Positions 26,627 through 33,105 of a stretch of 64,000 bases of DNA are shown one piece after another (within the stretch, counting starts at the first letter, position 1; each line of letters opens with the position of its first letter). This DNA comes from Sulfurospirillaceae bacterium. Its GTDB lineage: Bacteria; Campylobacterota; Campylobacteria; Campylobacterales; Sulfurospirillaceae. The notes beneath the pieces were generated by a model that made no database searches, was not told the origin of the DNA, and saw only the letters and a list, made by a program, of their open reading frames with translations. Location: NCBI GenBank assembly GCA_028692875.1, contig JAQUWL010000003.1:62001-126000 (forward strand), written 5' to 3'. The position numbers and the translations under genes are program-made.

Positions 26627-26704
26627 TGGTCGGAGTGACAGGACTTGAACCTGCGACCTCTACCACCCCAAGGTAGCACGCTAGCCAGACTGCGCTACAC
26701 CCCG
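26627..26704 (-). tRNA. tRNA-Pro (anticodon GGG)
   Basis: 78-nt tRNA with encoded CCA. The acceptor CGGGGTG pairs with CACTCCG; the anticodon arm is CTACC-TTGGGGT-GGTAG, giving anticodon GGG; the T-arm contains GGTTCAAGTCC. It is transcribed away from the radical SAM gene. Confidence 0.95.
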
Positions 26705-26752
26705 ACACATTTAATAAGTGCAATTTTAACAAAGATAACTAAAAACTTTTAT

Positions 26753-26782
26753 TATAATACCATCAAAAATACAAAATGGTAT
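26753..26782 (+). promoter_or_regulatory. Promoter and leader hairpin of the radical SAM gene
   Basis: TATAAT at 26753-26758 is a good -10. An inverted repeat ATACCAT (26757-26763) / ATGGTAT (26776-26782), with a 12-base A-rich loop, ends 3 bases before the ATG at 26786. Placed there it could act on translation initiation or as an operator; no ordinary Shine-Dalgarno is visible. Confidence 0.45.
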
Positions 26783-26785
26783 ATT

Positions 26786-28312
26786 ATGAAAGAAATTGTC
26801 CTTGCCACCTTTAATGCACGCTATACTCACACTTCTATTGCTTTACGCTATCTTTTTGCAAACCTAAAAGAGCTTCAATCTAAAAGCAAAATTCTTGAGT
26901 TTGTTATCAACTCTAGTGCGGCAGATGCGGTCGAATCTGTCTTGACGCTAAATCCTAAAATAGTCGGCATTGGAGCTTATATTTGGAATGCACTTGAGGT
27001 GCAAGAGTTTATCAATATTTTAAAAAAAGTATCTCCTCAAACAATGATTGTTTTAGGCGGACCAGAGGCGAGTCATTTTCCCTATAGGGTTGATTTTGAA
27101 AGGGCGGATTTTATTATCCAAGGGGAAGGGGATATAGCTTTTTATGAGCTATGCAAAAATATTTTACAAAACAATACACCCAAAGATAGGATTATTAAAG
27201 CACCTATGGTCGATATGAACGCTATTTATTTGCCTTATGACTTTTATGATGAGCAAGATATAAAAAATCGCTACTGCTATGTTGAGGCTAGTCGAGGATG
27301 CCCTTTTACATGTGAGTTTTGTCTCTCATCAATAGACAAAAAAGTGCGTGATATGGATATAGAAAAATTTTTATCTGAACTTGAAAAATTATGGCAAAAA
27401 GGTGTGCGAAACTTTAAATTTATAGACCGTACATTCAACCTTAGCATAGCCAATGCCAATCGTATATTGGACTTTTTTCTCTCAAAAAACGAGGAGTATT
27501 TTGTTCACTTTGAGGTTGTGCCAGACCATTTTCCGCAAGAGCTCAAAGAGAGAATCGCCAAATTTGCCCCTGCTTCATTGCAACTTGAGGTTGGTATTCA
27601 AACCTTAAATCCCATTATTGCGAAAAATATCAACCGAAGACTCAATATCCCAAAGATAAAAGAAAATTTAGCTTTTTTGCAAAATGAGACTAAAGCACAC
27701 CTACATGTAGACTTGATTGTTGGTTTGCCAGGTGAAAGCGTTGAGGGGTTTGGCACAAATCTTGATATGTTATATTCGCTGACACAGTGCGAAATTCAAA
27801 TAGGAATCCTTAAAAAACTTTCTGGAACAACGCTTTGCCGCCATGATGAAGAAGAGGGTATGATATATTCTGACAAACCGCCTTATGATATCTTAAAAAA
27901 CAATCTTATCTCTTTTGCTCAAATGCAAAAGATGAAGCGATTTGCTCGTTTTTGGGATTTGGTTTACAACAGTGGAAATTTTAAAAAAACGGCACCTTTG
28001 TTGTGGAGTGATGGAAAAGTTTACAAAGGTTTTTATGACTTTAGTGAGTGGATTTACTCCCAAACTGAGTCTACATGGCAAATCTCGCTCGAGAGGTTAA
28101 GTAACCTTATATTTTTATATCTTGTGAAGGTTTTAAATTATAAAGATGAGGCGATAAAAAAGGTGTTGATTGAAGACATCATGGGGCAAAGGGGGCGAAA
28201 ATTGCCATCTTTTCTAAGGGATGATTTTGTGCCAAGGCAGACAAAAGATACAATTATAAAAACAAATAAACGACAATTAAAACACTTAAAGGATAAAAAT
28301 AATGAAGATTGA
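26786..28312 (+). CDS. B12-binding domain radical SAM protein (DUF4080-like)
   Basis: Cobalamin-dependent radical SAM enzyme of about 508 residues, substrate unknown. The N-terminal B12-binding Rossmann domain (about 1-140) carries 'VGIGAYIWNALE' and 'VLGGPEAS'. The radical SAM Cx3Cx2C is 'RGCPFTCEFC' near residue 175, with later 'LEVGIQTLNP' and 'HVDLIVGLPGES' motifs. The C-terminal ~130 residues resemble the DUF4080 extension. The reading frame is open further left, but that part is antisense to tRNA-Pro; the ATG at 26786 is the natural start. It overlaps the DUF445 gene by 11 nt. Confidence 0.85.
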   Translation: MKEIVLATFNARYTHTSIALRYLFANLKELQSKSKILEFVINSSAADAVESVLTLNPKIVGIGAYIWNALEVQEFINILKKVSPQTMIVLGGPEASHFPYRVDFERADFIIQGEGDIAFYELCKNILQNNTPKDRIIKAPMVDMNAIYLPYDFYDEQDIKNRYCYVEASRGCPFTCEFCLSSIDKKVRDMDIEKFLSELEKLWQKGVRNFKFIDRTFNLSIANANRILDFFLSKNEEYFVHFEVVPDHFPQELKERIAKFAPASLQLEVGIQTLNPIIAKNINRRLNIPKIKENLAFLQNETKAHLHVDLIVGLPGESVEGFGTNLDMLYSLTQCEIQIGILKKLSGTTLCRHDEEEGMIYSDKPPYDILKNNLISFAQMQKMKRFARFWDLVYNSGNFKKTAPLLWSDGKVYKGFYDFSEWIYSQTESTWQISLERLSNLIFLYLVKVLNYKDEAIKKVLIEDIMGQRGRKLPSFLRDDFVPRQTKDTIIKTNKRQLKHLKDKNNED

Positions 28313-29012
28313 CAAAAGTTGGCTAACTGATATTGTAAGCATAACTGTTGTGTTTTTTTCTTTTGTTTTGGCTGAGCCTTATGCACATTGGTTTCTTTTA
28401 GCAGGTCTTTTTGCACTATCTGGTGCTTTAACAAATCAGATAGCTATACATATGCTTTTTGAAAAAGTTCCATTTTTGTATGGTAGTGGAGTTATACAGT
28501 TGCGATTTGAAGCCTTTAAAAGCTCGATAAAAAATCTAATCATAAATCAATTTTTCACCAAATCACAGTTGGATAATTTTTTCGCACAAGAGGAGAAAAA
28601 AATTGATTTAACTCAGATGATTGATGAGCTGGATTTTTCTGTTGCATTTGACGCACTGGGCAAAACAGTTATGGAGTCTTCTATCGGGGGTATGCTTAGT
28701 ATGTTTGGTGGTGTTGGAGTGCTAGAAGCATTGCGAGAGCCTTTTGGAGTAAGGCTTAAGCAGGCGATGACTGAAATGACAAAAAGTAATGATTTCAATA
28801 ACAAACTAAATCAAAAATTAAAAGATTCATCACTTAGCAGTGATATTTTATCCACGCTTGAGCAGTTGATAGATAAAAGACTTGATGAGCTTACGCCACA
28901 AATGGTTAAAGAGATAGTTCAAAATTTTATCAAAGAACACTTGGGTTGGCTAGTTGTCTGGGGCGGTTTTTTTGGCGGAATCATGGGTTTGCTGTCTGCT
29001 GTTATACTATAA
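28302..29012 (+). CDS. DUF445 family membrane protein
   Basis: A 236-residue membrane protein with two N-terminal hydrophobic helices (about 10-45), a C-terminal one ('WLVVWGGFFGGIMGLLSAVIL'), and a helical soluble middle. 'GALTNQIAIHMLFEKVPFLYGSGVI' is the hallmark of DUF445. The function of the family is not established. It starts inside the end of the radical SAM gene, so the two are probably co-translated. Confidence 0.82.
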   Translation: MKIDKSWLTDIVSITVVFFSFVLAEPYAHWFLLAGLFALSGALTNQIAIHMLFEKVPFLYGSGVIQLRFEAFKSSIKNLIINQFFTKSQLDNFFAQEEKKIDLTQMIDELDFSVAFDALGKTVMESSIGGMLSMFGGVGVLEALREPFGVRLKQAMTEMTKSNDFNNKLNQKLKDSSLSSDILSTLEQLIDKRLDELTPQMVKEIVQNFIKEHLGWLVVWGGFFGGIMGLLSAVIL

Positions 29013-29044: not shown

Positions 29045-30163
29045 ATGGAGTGTCAATATTTTGGAGTTTGCGGAAGTTGCACACTGTATCATTTGGATTA
29101 CAACAGACAAATTGAGCAAAAAAAGGCTTATATTGCCTCAATGTTTAACTCTTTACATGTAGAGAATTTTGAGGTTTTTACCTCTTGCTCGTCACATTAT
29201 CGCTCACGTGCAGAGTTTCGTATTTGGCACACATCTGAAAAGATAAGCTACGCCATGCACGCAAAAGAGGGTAAAGGTGTGGTTTGCATTAAGGAGTGTC
29301 CAAAAACAACTAGGGCTATATATGACTTAATGGAGCCTTTAAGGCTAGCTATACAGGAAAACAAGGATTTAAGTGAGAAGCTATATACCATTGAGTTTCT
29401 TGCTTCAAACAAGCATCTTTTGGTTACGATGATTTATCATAAAGCTATTGATAAAACATGGGAGGATAGTGCTAGAGAGCTAGAAAAAAAGTTTGGTATA
29501 CATATCATCGGCAGAAGCAGAGGCTTAAAAAAGGTGTTGTCGCAAGATTTTATATATCAAGATGTCATTCTTTCAAATCGTACATGTACATATAAGATAA
29601 TTGAGGGCGGATTTTCGCAACCCAATGCAAAAATCAATGAAAATATGATTTGCTGGGTGCTTTCAAAGCTTAAAAATGAAAAAGATTTGCTTGAGCTTTA
29701 TTGTGGTTACGGCAATTTTACTATTGCCTTGAGTCAAAAATTTCGATCTGTTTTGGCTACTGAGATATCGAAAGTTTCAATTTATAGTGCCATTGAAAAC
29801 TGTGCCATCAATAATGTTAAAAATATAAAATTTTTAAGAATGAGTGCCGAGGAGCTTACATCCGCTTTAAATAAAGAGAGAGTTTTTAACAGGCTAAAAG
29901 ATATCTCTCTTGATGATTATGACTTTAGTCATGTTTTTGTTGATCCTCCACGCTCCGGCATAGACGAAAATAGTCTAAATTTTATCAGTCGATTTGAGAC
30001 GATTGTCTATATCTCGTGCAATCCAGCAACGCTAAAGAGGGATTTGGAGTTTTTGACTTTGACGCACAATATAGAAGATTTTGCACTTTTCGATCAATTT
30101 CCATACACGGAACATATCGAATCAGGAGCAATACTCGCCAAGAAAAAGTGTAGTCTTTTATAA
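29045..30163 (+). CDS. trmA: tRNA (uracil-5-)-methyltransferase TrmA, with iron-sulfur type cysteines
   Basis: Makes ribothymidine 54 in tRNA with SAM. The body is plainly TrmA: 'SHYRSRAEFRIWH', 'LELYCGYGNFTIALSQKF', 'VFVDPPRSG', the catalytic Cys in 'YISCNPATL' and 'LFDQFPYTEHIESGAIL'. Length is 372. Unusually, the N-terminus carries C3-x5-C9-x2-C12 ('CQYFGVCGSC') and a later 'CIKECP' (C81/C85), the spacing used for the 4Fe-4S cluster of the rRNA enzymes RlmC and RlmD; E. coli TrmA lacks these. There is no TRAM domain. AAAAGAGG precedes the ATG. Confidence 0.9.
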   Translation: MECQYFGVCGSCTLYHLDYNRQIEQKKAYIASMFNSLHVENFEVFTSCSSHYRSRAEFRIWHTSEKISYAMHAKEGKGVVCIKECPKTTRAIYDLMEPLRLAIQENKDLSEKLYTIEFLASNKHLLVTMIYHKAIDKTWEDSARELEKKFGIHIIGRSRGLKKVLSQDFIYQDVILSNRTCTYKIIEGGFSQPNAKINENMICWVLSKLKNEKDLLELYCGYGNFTIALSQKFRSVLATEISKVSIYSAIENCAINNVKNIKFLRMSAEELTSALNKERVFNRLKDISLDDYDFSHVFVDPPRSGIDENSLNFISRFETIVYISCNPATLKRDLEFLTLTHNIEDFALFDQFPYTEHIESGAILAKKKCSLL

Positions 30164-31459: not shown

Positions 31460-31897
31460 GTGGAGTGTCCTATGCCAACGATAAACACAAATGATGCAAA
31501 AGAGTTAAAATCTATTTTTGAAGAGTGTAAAACGATTGCTATTGTGGGCTTGTCACCTGACAATACCAAAGCAAGTCATCAAGTTGCTTTATATTTGCAA
31601 CAACATGGATTTAAGATTTTCCCAATTTATCCAAAAGGGGATTATATTTTGGGCGAAAAAGTTTATAGAAATATTTTAGAGATTGAAGAAAAAATAGATA
31701 TGGTAGATATGTTTAGAAAGCCTGAAATCGCAGATACTTTGGTAAAAGAGTGTATTGGAAGAGGCGATGTTAAAGTATTTTGGCTTCAGCTAGGCATTGT
31801 CAATAATAATGCTTGCGAGATAGCAAAAAAACACGGAATTAAACCCGTGCAAAATAGATGTACAAAAATTGAATATGAAAGAGCAGTAAGACCATGA
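31460..31897 (+). CDS. CoA-binding domain protein (YccU-like)
   Basis: A 145-residue Rossmann-fold CoA-binding protein: 'TIAIVGLSPDNTKASHQVALYLQQHGF', 'IFPIYPKGDYILGEKVYRN', 'IDMVDMFRKPE' and the late 'VFWLQLGI', as in the single-domain YccU family. Its physiological role is not known. The start is a GTG six bases after a perfect AAGGAGG; a weaker ATG lies four codons in. It overlaps ilvA by 4 nt. Confidence 0.87.
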   Translation: MECPMPTINTNDAKELKSIFEECKTIAIVGLSPDNTKASHQVALYLQQHGFKIFPIYPKGDYILGEKVYRNILEIEEKIDMVDMFRKPEIADTLVKECIGRGDVKVFWLQLGIVNNNACEIAKKHGIKPVQNRCTKIEYERAVRP

Positions 31898-33105
31898 TAC
31901 CACTTAGTGAAATTATTCAGGCAAAACGCCAAATCAGTAAAATTGTCACAAATACCCCTTTTGCTATCGCTTCTATCTTTAGTGAAGAGATTGATGCGGA
32001 GGTTTATCTTAAAAAAGAGAATCTACAACTTACAGGTGCATACAAAATCAGAGGTGCCTACAACAAGATAGCCTCATTAAGCAAAGATGAGAAAAAACGT
32101 GGCGTAATTGCAGCAAGCGCAGGAAATCATGCACAAGGCGTAGCATATAGTGCCAAAACATTTGGTATAAATGCGACTATCATCATGCCAGAAGCCACTC
32201 CGCTTTTAAAGGTAGCAGGTACTAGAGCTTTGGGGGCTGAAGTTATTTTGCATGGCGATAACTACGATGAGGCATATGCTTATGCTAGAACCTATGCGAG
32301 CGACAATAATCTTACATTTATCCATCCTTTTGAAGATGACAAAGTTATTGCAGGGCAGGGAACAGTTGCACTAGAGATGATTGATGAAGTAAATGATTTG
32401 GATATTATTGTTGTTCCAATAGGAGGCGGTGGACTTATTAGCGGTATGGCTTCGGCGATTAAACAAATTGATCCAAAAATCAAGGTTATCGGAGTAACTG
32501 CCAAGGGTGCACCTGCTATGTATGAATCTTTCAGAACAAAAAAAGTTGTTCATTCAAAAAGTGTACGTACAATAGCTGATGGTATAGCAGTAAGAGACAC
32601 GAGCGAATCCAATCTAAAGCACATTTTAGAGTGTGTTGATGATGTTGTGCAAGTTGATGATGAAGAGATAGCAAGTGCTATTTTGATGCTTCTAGAGAGA
32701 CAAAAACTTGTTGTTGAAGGAGGAGGAGCGGCGAGTGTAGCAGCAATAATGCACCGAAAATTTCCTTACGAAAAAGGTGCCAAAATCGGCGCTGTTTTGA
32801 GTGGCGGAAATATCGACGTGCAGATGCTTTCTGTTATTATCGAAAAAGGTTTGATTAAGTCGCATCGCAAGATGAAACTTCTTATTACTTTGATTGACAA
32901 ACCAGGTGCACTGATGCGACTAACAGACCTATTTAGAGAAGCAAATGCCAATATTATTGAGATAGATTATGATAGAACATCAACCAAGCTATCGTATGGC
33001 GATGCAAAAATAACTATCGTTTTAGAAACCAAGGGTATGGAGCATCAAGATACGATTAGAGAAATGCTTTTAAAAGCAGGATATCCATTTGAAGAAGAGC
33101 TGTAA
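31894..33105 (+). CDS. ilvA: Threonine dehydratase (biosynthetic)
   Basis: PLP enzyme that makes 2-oxobutanoate for isoleucine. The PLP lysine is in 'QLTGAYKIRGAYNKI', with the Gly-rich phosphate loop 'VPIGGGGLISG' and 'ASAGNHAQGVAY'. At 403 residues it has a single ACT-like regulatory domain at the C-terminus ('KLLITLIDKPGALMRLTDLFREANANI'), as in the shorter biosynthetic or TdcB-with-ACT forms, not the double domain of E. coli IlvA. ilvB-ilvN lie 15 kb downstream. Confidence 0.93.
   Translation: MIPLSEIIQAKRQISKIVTNTPFAIASIFSEEIDAEVYLKKENLQLTGAYKIRGAYNKIASLSKDEKKRGVIAASAGNHAQGVAYSAKTFGINATIIMPEATPLLKVAGTRALGAEVILHGDNYDEAYAYARTYASDNNLTFIHPFEDDKVIAGQGTVALEMIDEVNDLDIIVVPIGGGGLISGMASAIKQIDPKIKVIGVTAKGAPAMYESFRTKKVVHSKSVRTIADGIAVRDTSESNLKHILECVDDVVQVDDEEIASAILMLLERQKLVVEGGGAASVAAIMHRKFPYEKGAKIGAVLSGGNIDVQMLSVIIEKGLIKSHRKMKLLITLIDKPGALMRLTDLFREANANIIEIDYDRTSTKLSYGDAKITIVLETKGMEHQDTIREMLLKAGYPFEEEL

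Follow-up and report, generated by a model that had tools for sequence, protein, structure and literature searches.

A TrmA-type tRNA (uracil-54-C5)-methyltransferase of the Campylobacterota with a predicted [4Fe-4S] site, probably retained from a COG2265 ancestor

The trmA locus and its product

Positions 29045..30163 on the forward strand of the window, i.e. of the whole 64,000-nucleotide stretch of DNA analysed here, hold trmA, an open reading frame of 372 amino acids that, judged by its sequence, is a TrmA, the SAM-dependent tRNA (uracil-54-C5)-methyltransferase. It starts with the ATG at 29045, and a purine-rich site (aaaagagg) lies closely upstream. TIGR02143, the curated equivalog model of TrmA, matches the open reading frame with 446 bits at a cut-off of 334.65, and the Pfam model PF05958 matches it with 438.8 bits. 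The models of RlmD and RlmC stay below their cut-offs, i.e. NF009639 (RlmD) with 177 against 458, TIGR00479 (RlmD) with 149 against 183.55 and TIGR02085 (RlmC) with 66.6 against 429.5, the remaining RlmC models likewise. In the PDB, the top sequence match is E. coli TrmA (3bt7, 281.7 bits), followed by RumA/RlmD (1uwv). Pfam matches up to an E-value of 1 include no TRAM domain.

C325 (30017..30019) and E359 (30119..30121), on the same strand as the gene, align with C324 and E358 of E. coli TrmA, which we take to be its nucleophile and its base. Position 325 is Cys in all 169 of the 169 four-cysteine TrmAs described below, and E359 is invariant in an alignment of 41 sequences (A1). Similarly, F106, H125 and Q190 of the E. 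coli enzyme, which we chose as presumed active-site or T-arm-contact residues, map to Y114, H132 and Q192 and are kept or similar. A nucleophilic Cys and a proton-abstracting Glu are described in the available part of PMC7237155. The preliminary description of this DNA held that the body of the protein is TrmA, and the TIGR02143 score, the top PDB match to 3bt7 and the placement with TrmA in the tree described below bear this out.

Upstream, at 26645-29012, a DUF445 gene, whose end lies immediately before trmA, is overlapped by a radical SAM gene (B12-binding domain, DUF4080). We considered these two genes as co-conserved neighbours and rejected them: of 198 loci spanning 3900 bases or more, none but the window's has a match to either protein beside trmA. 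Many of the other 197 loci are short-flanked, and none of them is from the family of the window, in which the remaining loci are only 1.3 kb long. Downstream, trmA is followed by an MCP gene, beyond which open reading frames at 31460-33105 encode a short protein and a second protein that we presume to be CoA-binding-like and threonine dehydratase-like, respectively. By tblastn, relatives of the former are found near trmA in 20 of the 198 loci, its own included, and relatives of the latter in 26.

Four cysteines at the positions of the RlmD cluster ligands

The cysteines of the window TrmA are residues 3, 9, 12, 48, 81, 85, 181, 203, 220, 253, 325 and 369. The preliminary description singled out an N-terminal C3-x5-C9-x2-C12 and a later CIKECP, and likened them to the cluster spacing of RlmC and RlmD. 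The N-terminal motif is indeed present in the translation (29051..29080, forward strand), and its cysteines are the first three predicted [4Fe-4S] ligands, aligned with C81, C87 and C90 of RlmD. The fourth predicted ligand, C85 (29297..29299, same strand), lies in the TrmA-type central domain and aligns with C162 of RlmD and C87 of RlmC; the last base of its codon, 29299, is also where the region described earlier ended. All four are present in the same 169 of 191 Campylobacterota TrmAs. Thus, of the CIKECP motif, only C85 is one of the conserved residues. C81 (29285..29287, same strand) is not and is ruled out as a ligand by conservation, because it is Cys in only 14 of the 169 four-ligand proteins.

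Two alignments place these residues consistently. In a phmmer alignment to RumA, which begins at residue 2, C3, C9 and C12 fall on the C-x5-C-x2-C of RumA and C85 on the Cys of its KQCP, and a larger alignment equates C3, C9, C12 and C85 with residues 81, 87, 90 and 162 of E. coli RlmD and with residues 3, 11, 14 and 87 of RlmC. In the part of PMC5614603 that is available, the RumA ligands are named Cys81, Cys87, Cys90 and Cys161, the fourth being one off the 162 of our alignment. In these alignments, the four cysteines therefore occupy positions homologous to the [4Fe-4S] site of COG2265 enzymes. The likeness in spacing holds for RlmD, which has C-x5-C-x2-C plus a distal Cys as in the window TrmA. 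It does not extend to E. coli RlmC, which has C-x7-C-x2-C, whereas x5 is found in the window TrmA and in 169 of the 169 four-cysteine proteins. E. coli TrmA, just as described before, has none of these residues: its N-terminal segment lacks Cys, and Phe is found at the position of C85. The TIGR02143 and PF05958 matches start only at residue 18 of the window TrmA, i.e. after C3-C12, so that a match to either model cannot reveal the N-terminal cysteines.

An AlphaFold2 model, metal-free and built from 41 sequences, has a pLDDT of 94 and a pTM of 0.90, with residues 1-10 at 87. It superimposes on TrmA 3bt7 from residue 10 with a Z-score of 45.3 at 2.1 A and 40% identity, and its residues 1..366 match residues 79..431 of RumA 1uwv, by the end points of the superposition, with a Z-score of 39.5 at 2.2 A. 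Foldseek gives the same order of folds, with TrmA 3bt7 ahead of RumA 1uwv. The superposition on RumA is as expected if, in the model, C3 lies on C81 and the N-terminal loop occupies the place of the cluster loop of RumA. The sole TrmA matched in the PDB is the E. coli enzyme, and no solved structure was found for a TrmA that bears the cluster.

Four-cysteine sites can take either metal, and the four residues could in principle bind zinc rather than [4Fe-4S]. However, their positions and spacing are the same as in the cluster site of RlmD, and an archaeal U54 enzyme is reported with an iron-sulfur cluster in the available text of PMC7912444. We therefore consider zinc to be highly unlikely and regard [4Fe-4S] as the predicted cofactor.

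Distribution and history of the site

A profile search with PF05958 matched 353 of 397 Campylobacterota genomes, and four families were also searched separately. From the returned loci, together with regions picked to span genera, 191 TrmA proteins, representing 63 genera in 13 families, were compiled; the regions were picked after a look at 30 loci and without seeing the chosen sequences. Among the 191 proteins, 169 from 61 genera have all four cysteines with the exact x5 and x2 spacing. Another 21 have none of the four, and every one of these is from a single genus group, g15, in which the N-terminus is shortened or degraded; since g15 is large and only these 21 of its proteins were sampled, the ratio of 169 to 21 should not be read as a frequency in the phylum. 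In the one remaining protein (L146), C85 is present and the upstream DNA reads the motif followed by an in-frame stop, perhaps a draft error. A set that is present as a whole in 169 of 191 proteins, and absent as a whole in 21 of the other 22, is not a matter of chance. Of the other cysteines, only C325 and C220 approach this conservation: among the 169 proteins, Cys is found at position 325 in all, at 220 in 164 and at 253 in 78, and at positions 48, 181 and 203 it is outside the five commonest residues.

A second sample points the same way. Of the best 80 of 165 named loci, 20 are from Campylobacterota and 60 from elsewhere. All four cysteines are present in 19 of the 20, and the twentieth (L063), which is cut by a contig end and begins at residue 22, retains C85. 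Among the 60 TrmAs from outside the phylum in these best 80, i.e. from gamma- and beta-proteobacteria and one Bacteriovoracaceae bin, the three N-terminal cysteines are found in none. Nine of the 60 (L083, L091, L094, L099, L068, L108, L109, L103 and L107; Neptuniibacter, Marinobacterium and Nitrincola) have a lone Cys at position 85 without the N-terminal set. We do not claim this lone cysteine as a relic of the cluster, because the four of these proteins that were included in the tree form one nested group, the column needs three changes, and a reversal is as likely. Separately, three trmA matches in genus g54 (G222:C3:90151-91167, G345:C1:293352-294365 and G352:C1:242247-243263) each have one TAG and one TAA inside; they reflect either gene decay or a frame problem common to all three, and are outside the cysteine table.

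In a tree of 102 proteins, made with a quick method and with the N-terminal segment and the C85 column left out, TrmA is apart from RlmC/RlmD and the window protein groups with TrmA (SH-aLRT 99). The TrmAs from outside the phylum form one group (98), and g15 (100) branches within a group (100) formed by four genera of its own family that carry the cluster site. With each tree row given the state of its group, the presence or absence of the cysteine site requires two changes on this tree. In the free quick tree, the gamma- and beta-proteobacterial TrmAs are nested among those of Campylobacterota; a tree in which the Campylobacterota are held together has a better likelihood and is not rejected (p 0.69; 0.61 when a second tree, of 111 rows, is used). 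The quick method, the long branches between groups and the uneven letter make-up limit these trees, and we are unsure of the TrmA root. Under either topology, the history would most simply be a cluster-bearing ancestor followed by two losses.

The tree and the position of C85 also bear on whether the site could be a secondary gain, in which a cluster-less TrmA ancestor regained it, for example with an N-terminal piece from RlmD. The N-terminal segment is closely like that of RlmD, as such a history predicts. Nevertheless, a domain swap is unlikely, since C85 is a residue of the TrmA-type central domain and would have had to be gained independently, and by our count on the 102-protein tree loss, regain and renewed loss make three changes as opposed to two. 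We regard a secondary gain as improbable in the extreme. By contrast, the suggestion that the enzyme keeps an ancestral cluster agrees with the homologous positions, the all-or-none conservation and the occurrence of cluster-less TrmAs in two separate groups of the tree. Conservation in close homologues, on which the preliminary description had made this suggestion depend, does not refute it, as 169 of 191 keep all four cysteines. Thus, the window TrmA is a clade-wide variant of a known enzyme, and comparison of the sequences makes ancestral retention of its site well supported.

Substrate, role of the site and known relatives

The preliminary description raised the question of separate RlmC or RlmD genes. 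PF05958 matches the window's genome once, and the search with this model found neither RlmC nor RlmD in it. TrmFO over the cut-off was also not found in this genome, and the weak match to the TrmFO model (63.8 against 428.65 bits) is probably the related MnmG. As controls, PF05958 scores E. coli RlmC with 68.6 and RlmD with 101.1 bits, and in 11 of 12 proteobacterial genomes the same search yields an additional match above the cut-off. Because both controls are positive, a separate RlmC or RlmD in the window's genome would probably have shown, and, with one PF05958 gene and no TrmFO over the cut-off, trmA is the sole candidate found for m5U54. A 23S rRNA gene was not found with RF02541 in this genome, which is rated 99.87% complete; the rRNA operon is probably unassembled.

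Among the best matches listed, 22 of the 23 genomes in the window's family have exactly one PF05958 match. Across the phylum, absence of RlmC and RlmD is judged from the best matches listed, among which weaker second genes could be hidden. A search with an RlmD model found, among the matches listed, a second COG2265 gene of the RlmC type in at least 10 of 397 Campylobacterota genomes (L308-L317 in G338, G390, G176, G389, G362, G308, G133, G303, G217 and G060). These ten genes are from one family, nine genomes belonging to g40 and one to g29, and are open frames of 376-421 amino acids. All ten proteins have C-x7-C-x2-C and the four cluster cysteines, and they group with E. coli RlmC (support 99). 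In families f2, f3, f5 and f6 (60, 71, 21 and 12 genomes, listed in full), matches other than TrmA-match pieces reach at most 25.1 bits; in G413, the TrmA match is in pieces on two contigs. One of 13 proteobacterial RlmC/RlmD paralogues (L301) is without the pattern C-x5..7-C-x2-C, and the cluster is therefore not universal among RlmC/RlmD either. As a separate observation, genus g19 has no PF05958 match in the listed genomes, as is the case for some other f2 genomes; g19 looks like Helicobacter, and m5U54 may have been lost there.

With a single COG2265 gene in the genome, and a single PF05958 match in nearly all of its family, the window TrmA might also methylate U747 and/or U1939 of 23S rRNA, with the loop serving in rRNA recognition as in RlmD. 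Precedents exist, since mitochondrial TRMT2B is a dual tRNA/rRNA m5U enzyme according to the available part of PMC7237155. Moreover, m5U747 is placed mainly in beta-, epsilon- and gammaproteobacteria in the 2020 paper PMC7226160, as far as its available text goes, whereas we find an RlmC-type gene in at least 10 of 397 genomes; given this small number, either the statement holds less widely or a different enzyme may be at work. However, the TrmAs of two genomes with an RlmC-type gene, L205 (G390) and L203 (G060), keep all four cysteines in both cases read, so that the site is not accounted for by the lack of an rRNA enzyme, and the window TrmA lacks the TRAM domain. In addition, the available text of PMC5778110 reports that in Campylobacter jejuni, which has no rlmD, U1939 is unmodified by mass spectrometry. 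Because C. jejuni may belong to the cluster-less g15, which may be the jejuni/lari part of Campylobacter, its unmodified U1939 is no test for cluster-bearing species. On balance, we consider methylation of rRNA by this enzyme very unlikely; the preliminary suggestion that it methylates both tRNA and rRNA finds no support, even though trmA is indeed the only COG2265 gene found in the genome.

Instead, we favor a model in which the window TrmA is the ordinary tRNA m5U54 methyltransferase of the phylum and has retained from the COG2265 ancestor a [4Fe-4S] site with a structural role. We consider this model highly probable, with the metal, its structural role and the tRNA substrate as predictions. 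In this model, C5 of U54 in the tRNA T-loop would be methylated with S-adenosylmethionine, with C325 as the nucleophile and E359 as the base. The ligand set of three cysteines in the N-terminal loop and one in the central domain would predate the split of TrmA, RlmC and RlmD within COG2265. By analogy with RlmD, the cluster would pin the N-terminal loop (C3-C12) via C85 onto the central RNA-binding domain and would have no part in methyl transfer. The site would have been lost once on the gamma/beta-proteobacterial TrmA line and once in the Campylobacterota g15. Two statements in the available part of PMC5614603 are in line with such a role: the RumA cluster stabilises the local conformation and helps to place a water-mediated RNA contact, and RlmCD, which is without a cluster, is taken to exclude a direct catalytic role of the RumA cluster. 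The accessible text of PMC4081110 presents the view that TrmA and RlmC/D descend from a multi-site ancestor.

E. coli TrmA works without the site; such strict conservation across 61 genera therefore points to a role beyond that of a structural relic. The cluster could be a sensor of redox state or iron, in which damage to it unfolds the N-terminal loop, lowers m5U54 and tunes tRNA folding to oxygen or iron. The all-or-none conservation in these genera can be counted for such a sensor, as can the redox reactions of the RumA cluster reportedly described by Agarwalla in 2004. On the other side, the RumA cluster is suggested to contribute to conformational stability in the portion of PMC5614603 available. 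We hold a sensor to be exceedingly unlikely. Even the broader proposition, that the protein is either a surviving multi-site COG2265 enzyme making m5U54 and 23S m5U or has a redox-responsive cluster that sets the level of m5U54, strikes us as unlikely.

A retained structural site reverses the default assumption. With 61 of 63 sampled Campylobacterota genera keeping the site, it is the cluster-free E. coli TrmA that looks derived. The two apparent losses, one of them within the phylum and between related genera, offer a natural comparison for the role of the cluster in m5U methyltransferases, a role that was called unclear in 2017 in the available part of PMC5614603. The literature searched, mostly listings and abstracts and short of some key older papers, contained no mention of such cysteines in a TrmA from bacteria.

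The window TrmA shares with E. coli TrmA (3bt7) the family, the fold (Z 45.3), the catalytic Cys and Glu and the lack of a Pfam TRAM domain, but E. coli TrmA is without the N-terminal cysteine loop and has Phe at the position of C85. With E. coli RlmD/RumA (1uwv, 2bh2), it has in common the four-cysteine site at homologous positions, the x5 and x2 spacing and the fold (Z 39.5); by contrast, RlmD, for which the available texts of PMC5778110 and PMC7237155 give 23S U1939 as the target, has a TRAM domain and belongs to another clade. E. coli RlmC and the at least 10 RlmC-type genes of Campylobacterota likewise encode the four cluster cysteines, and E. coli RlmC lacks TRAM as well; however, these proteins have C-x7-C-x2-C and form a separate clade. 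RlmCD of S. pneumoniae (5xj1) has the COG2265 fold (Z 37.5) and, unlike the cluster enzymes, a short helix in place of the cluster, as stated in the available part of PMC5614603. Finally, TrmU54 of Pyrococcus abyssi (2jjq, 2vs1; Z 33.3) is also a tRNA U54 methyltransferase reported with an iron-sulfur cluster, and its cysteine segment aligns with that of the window TrmA; according to the available text of PMC7912444, though, it is nearer to RlmD and arose by an ancient transfer, and it is not a TrmA.
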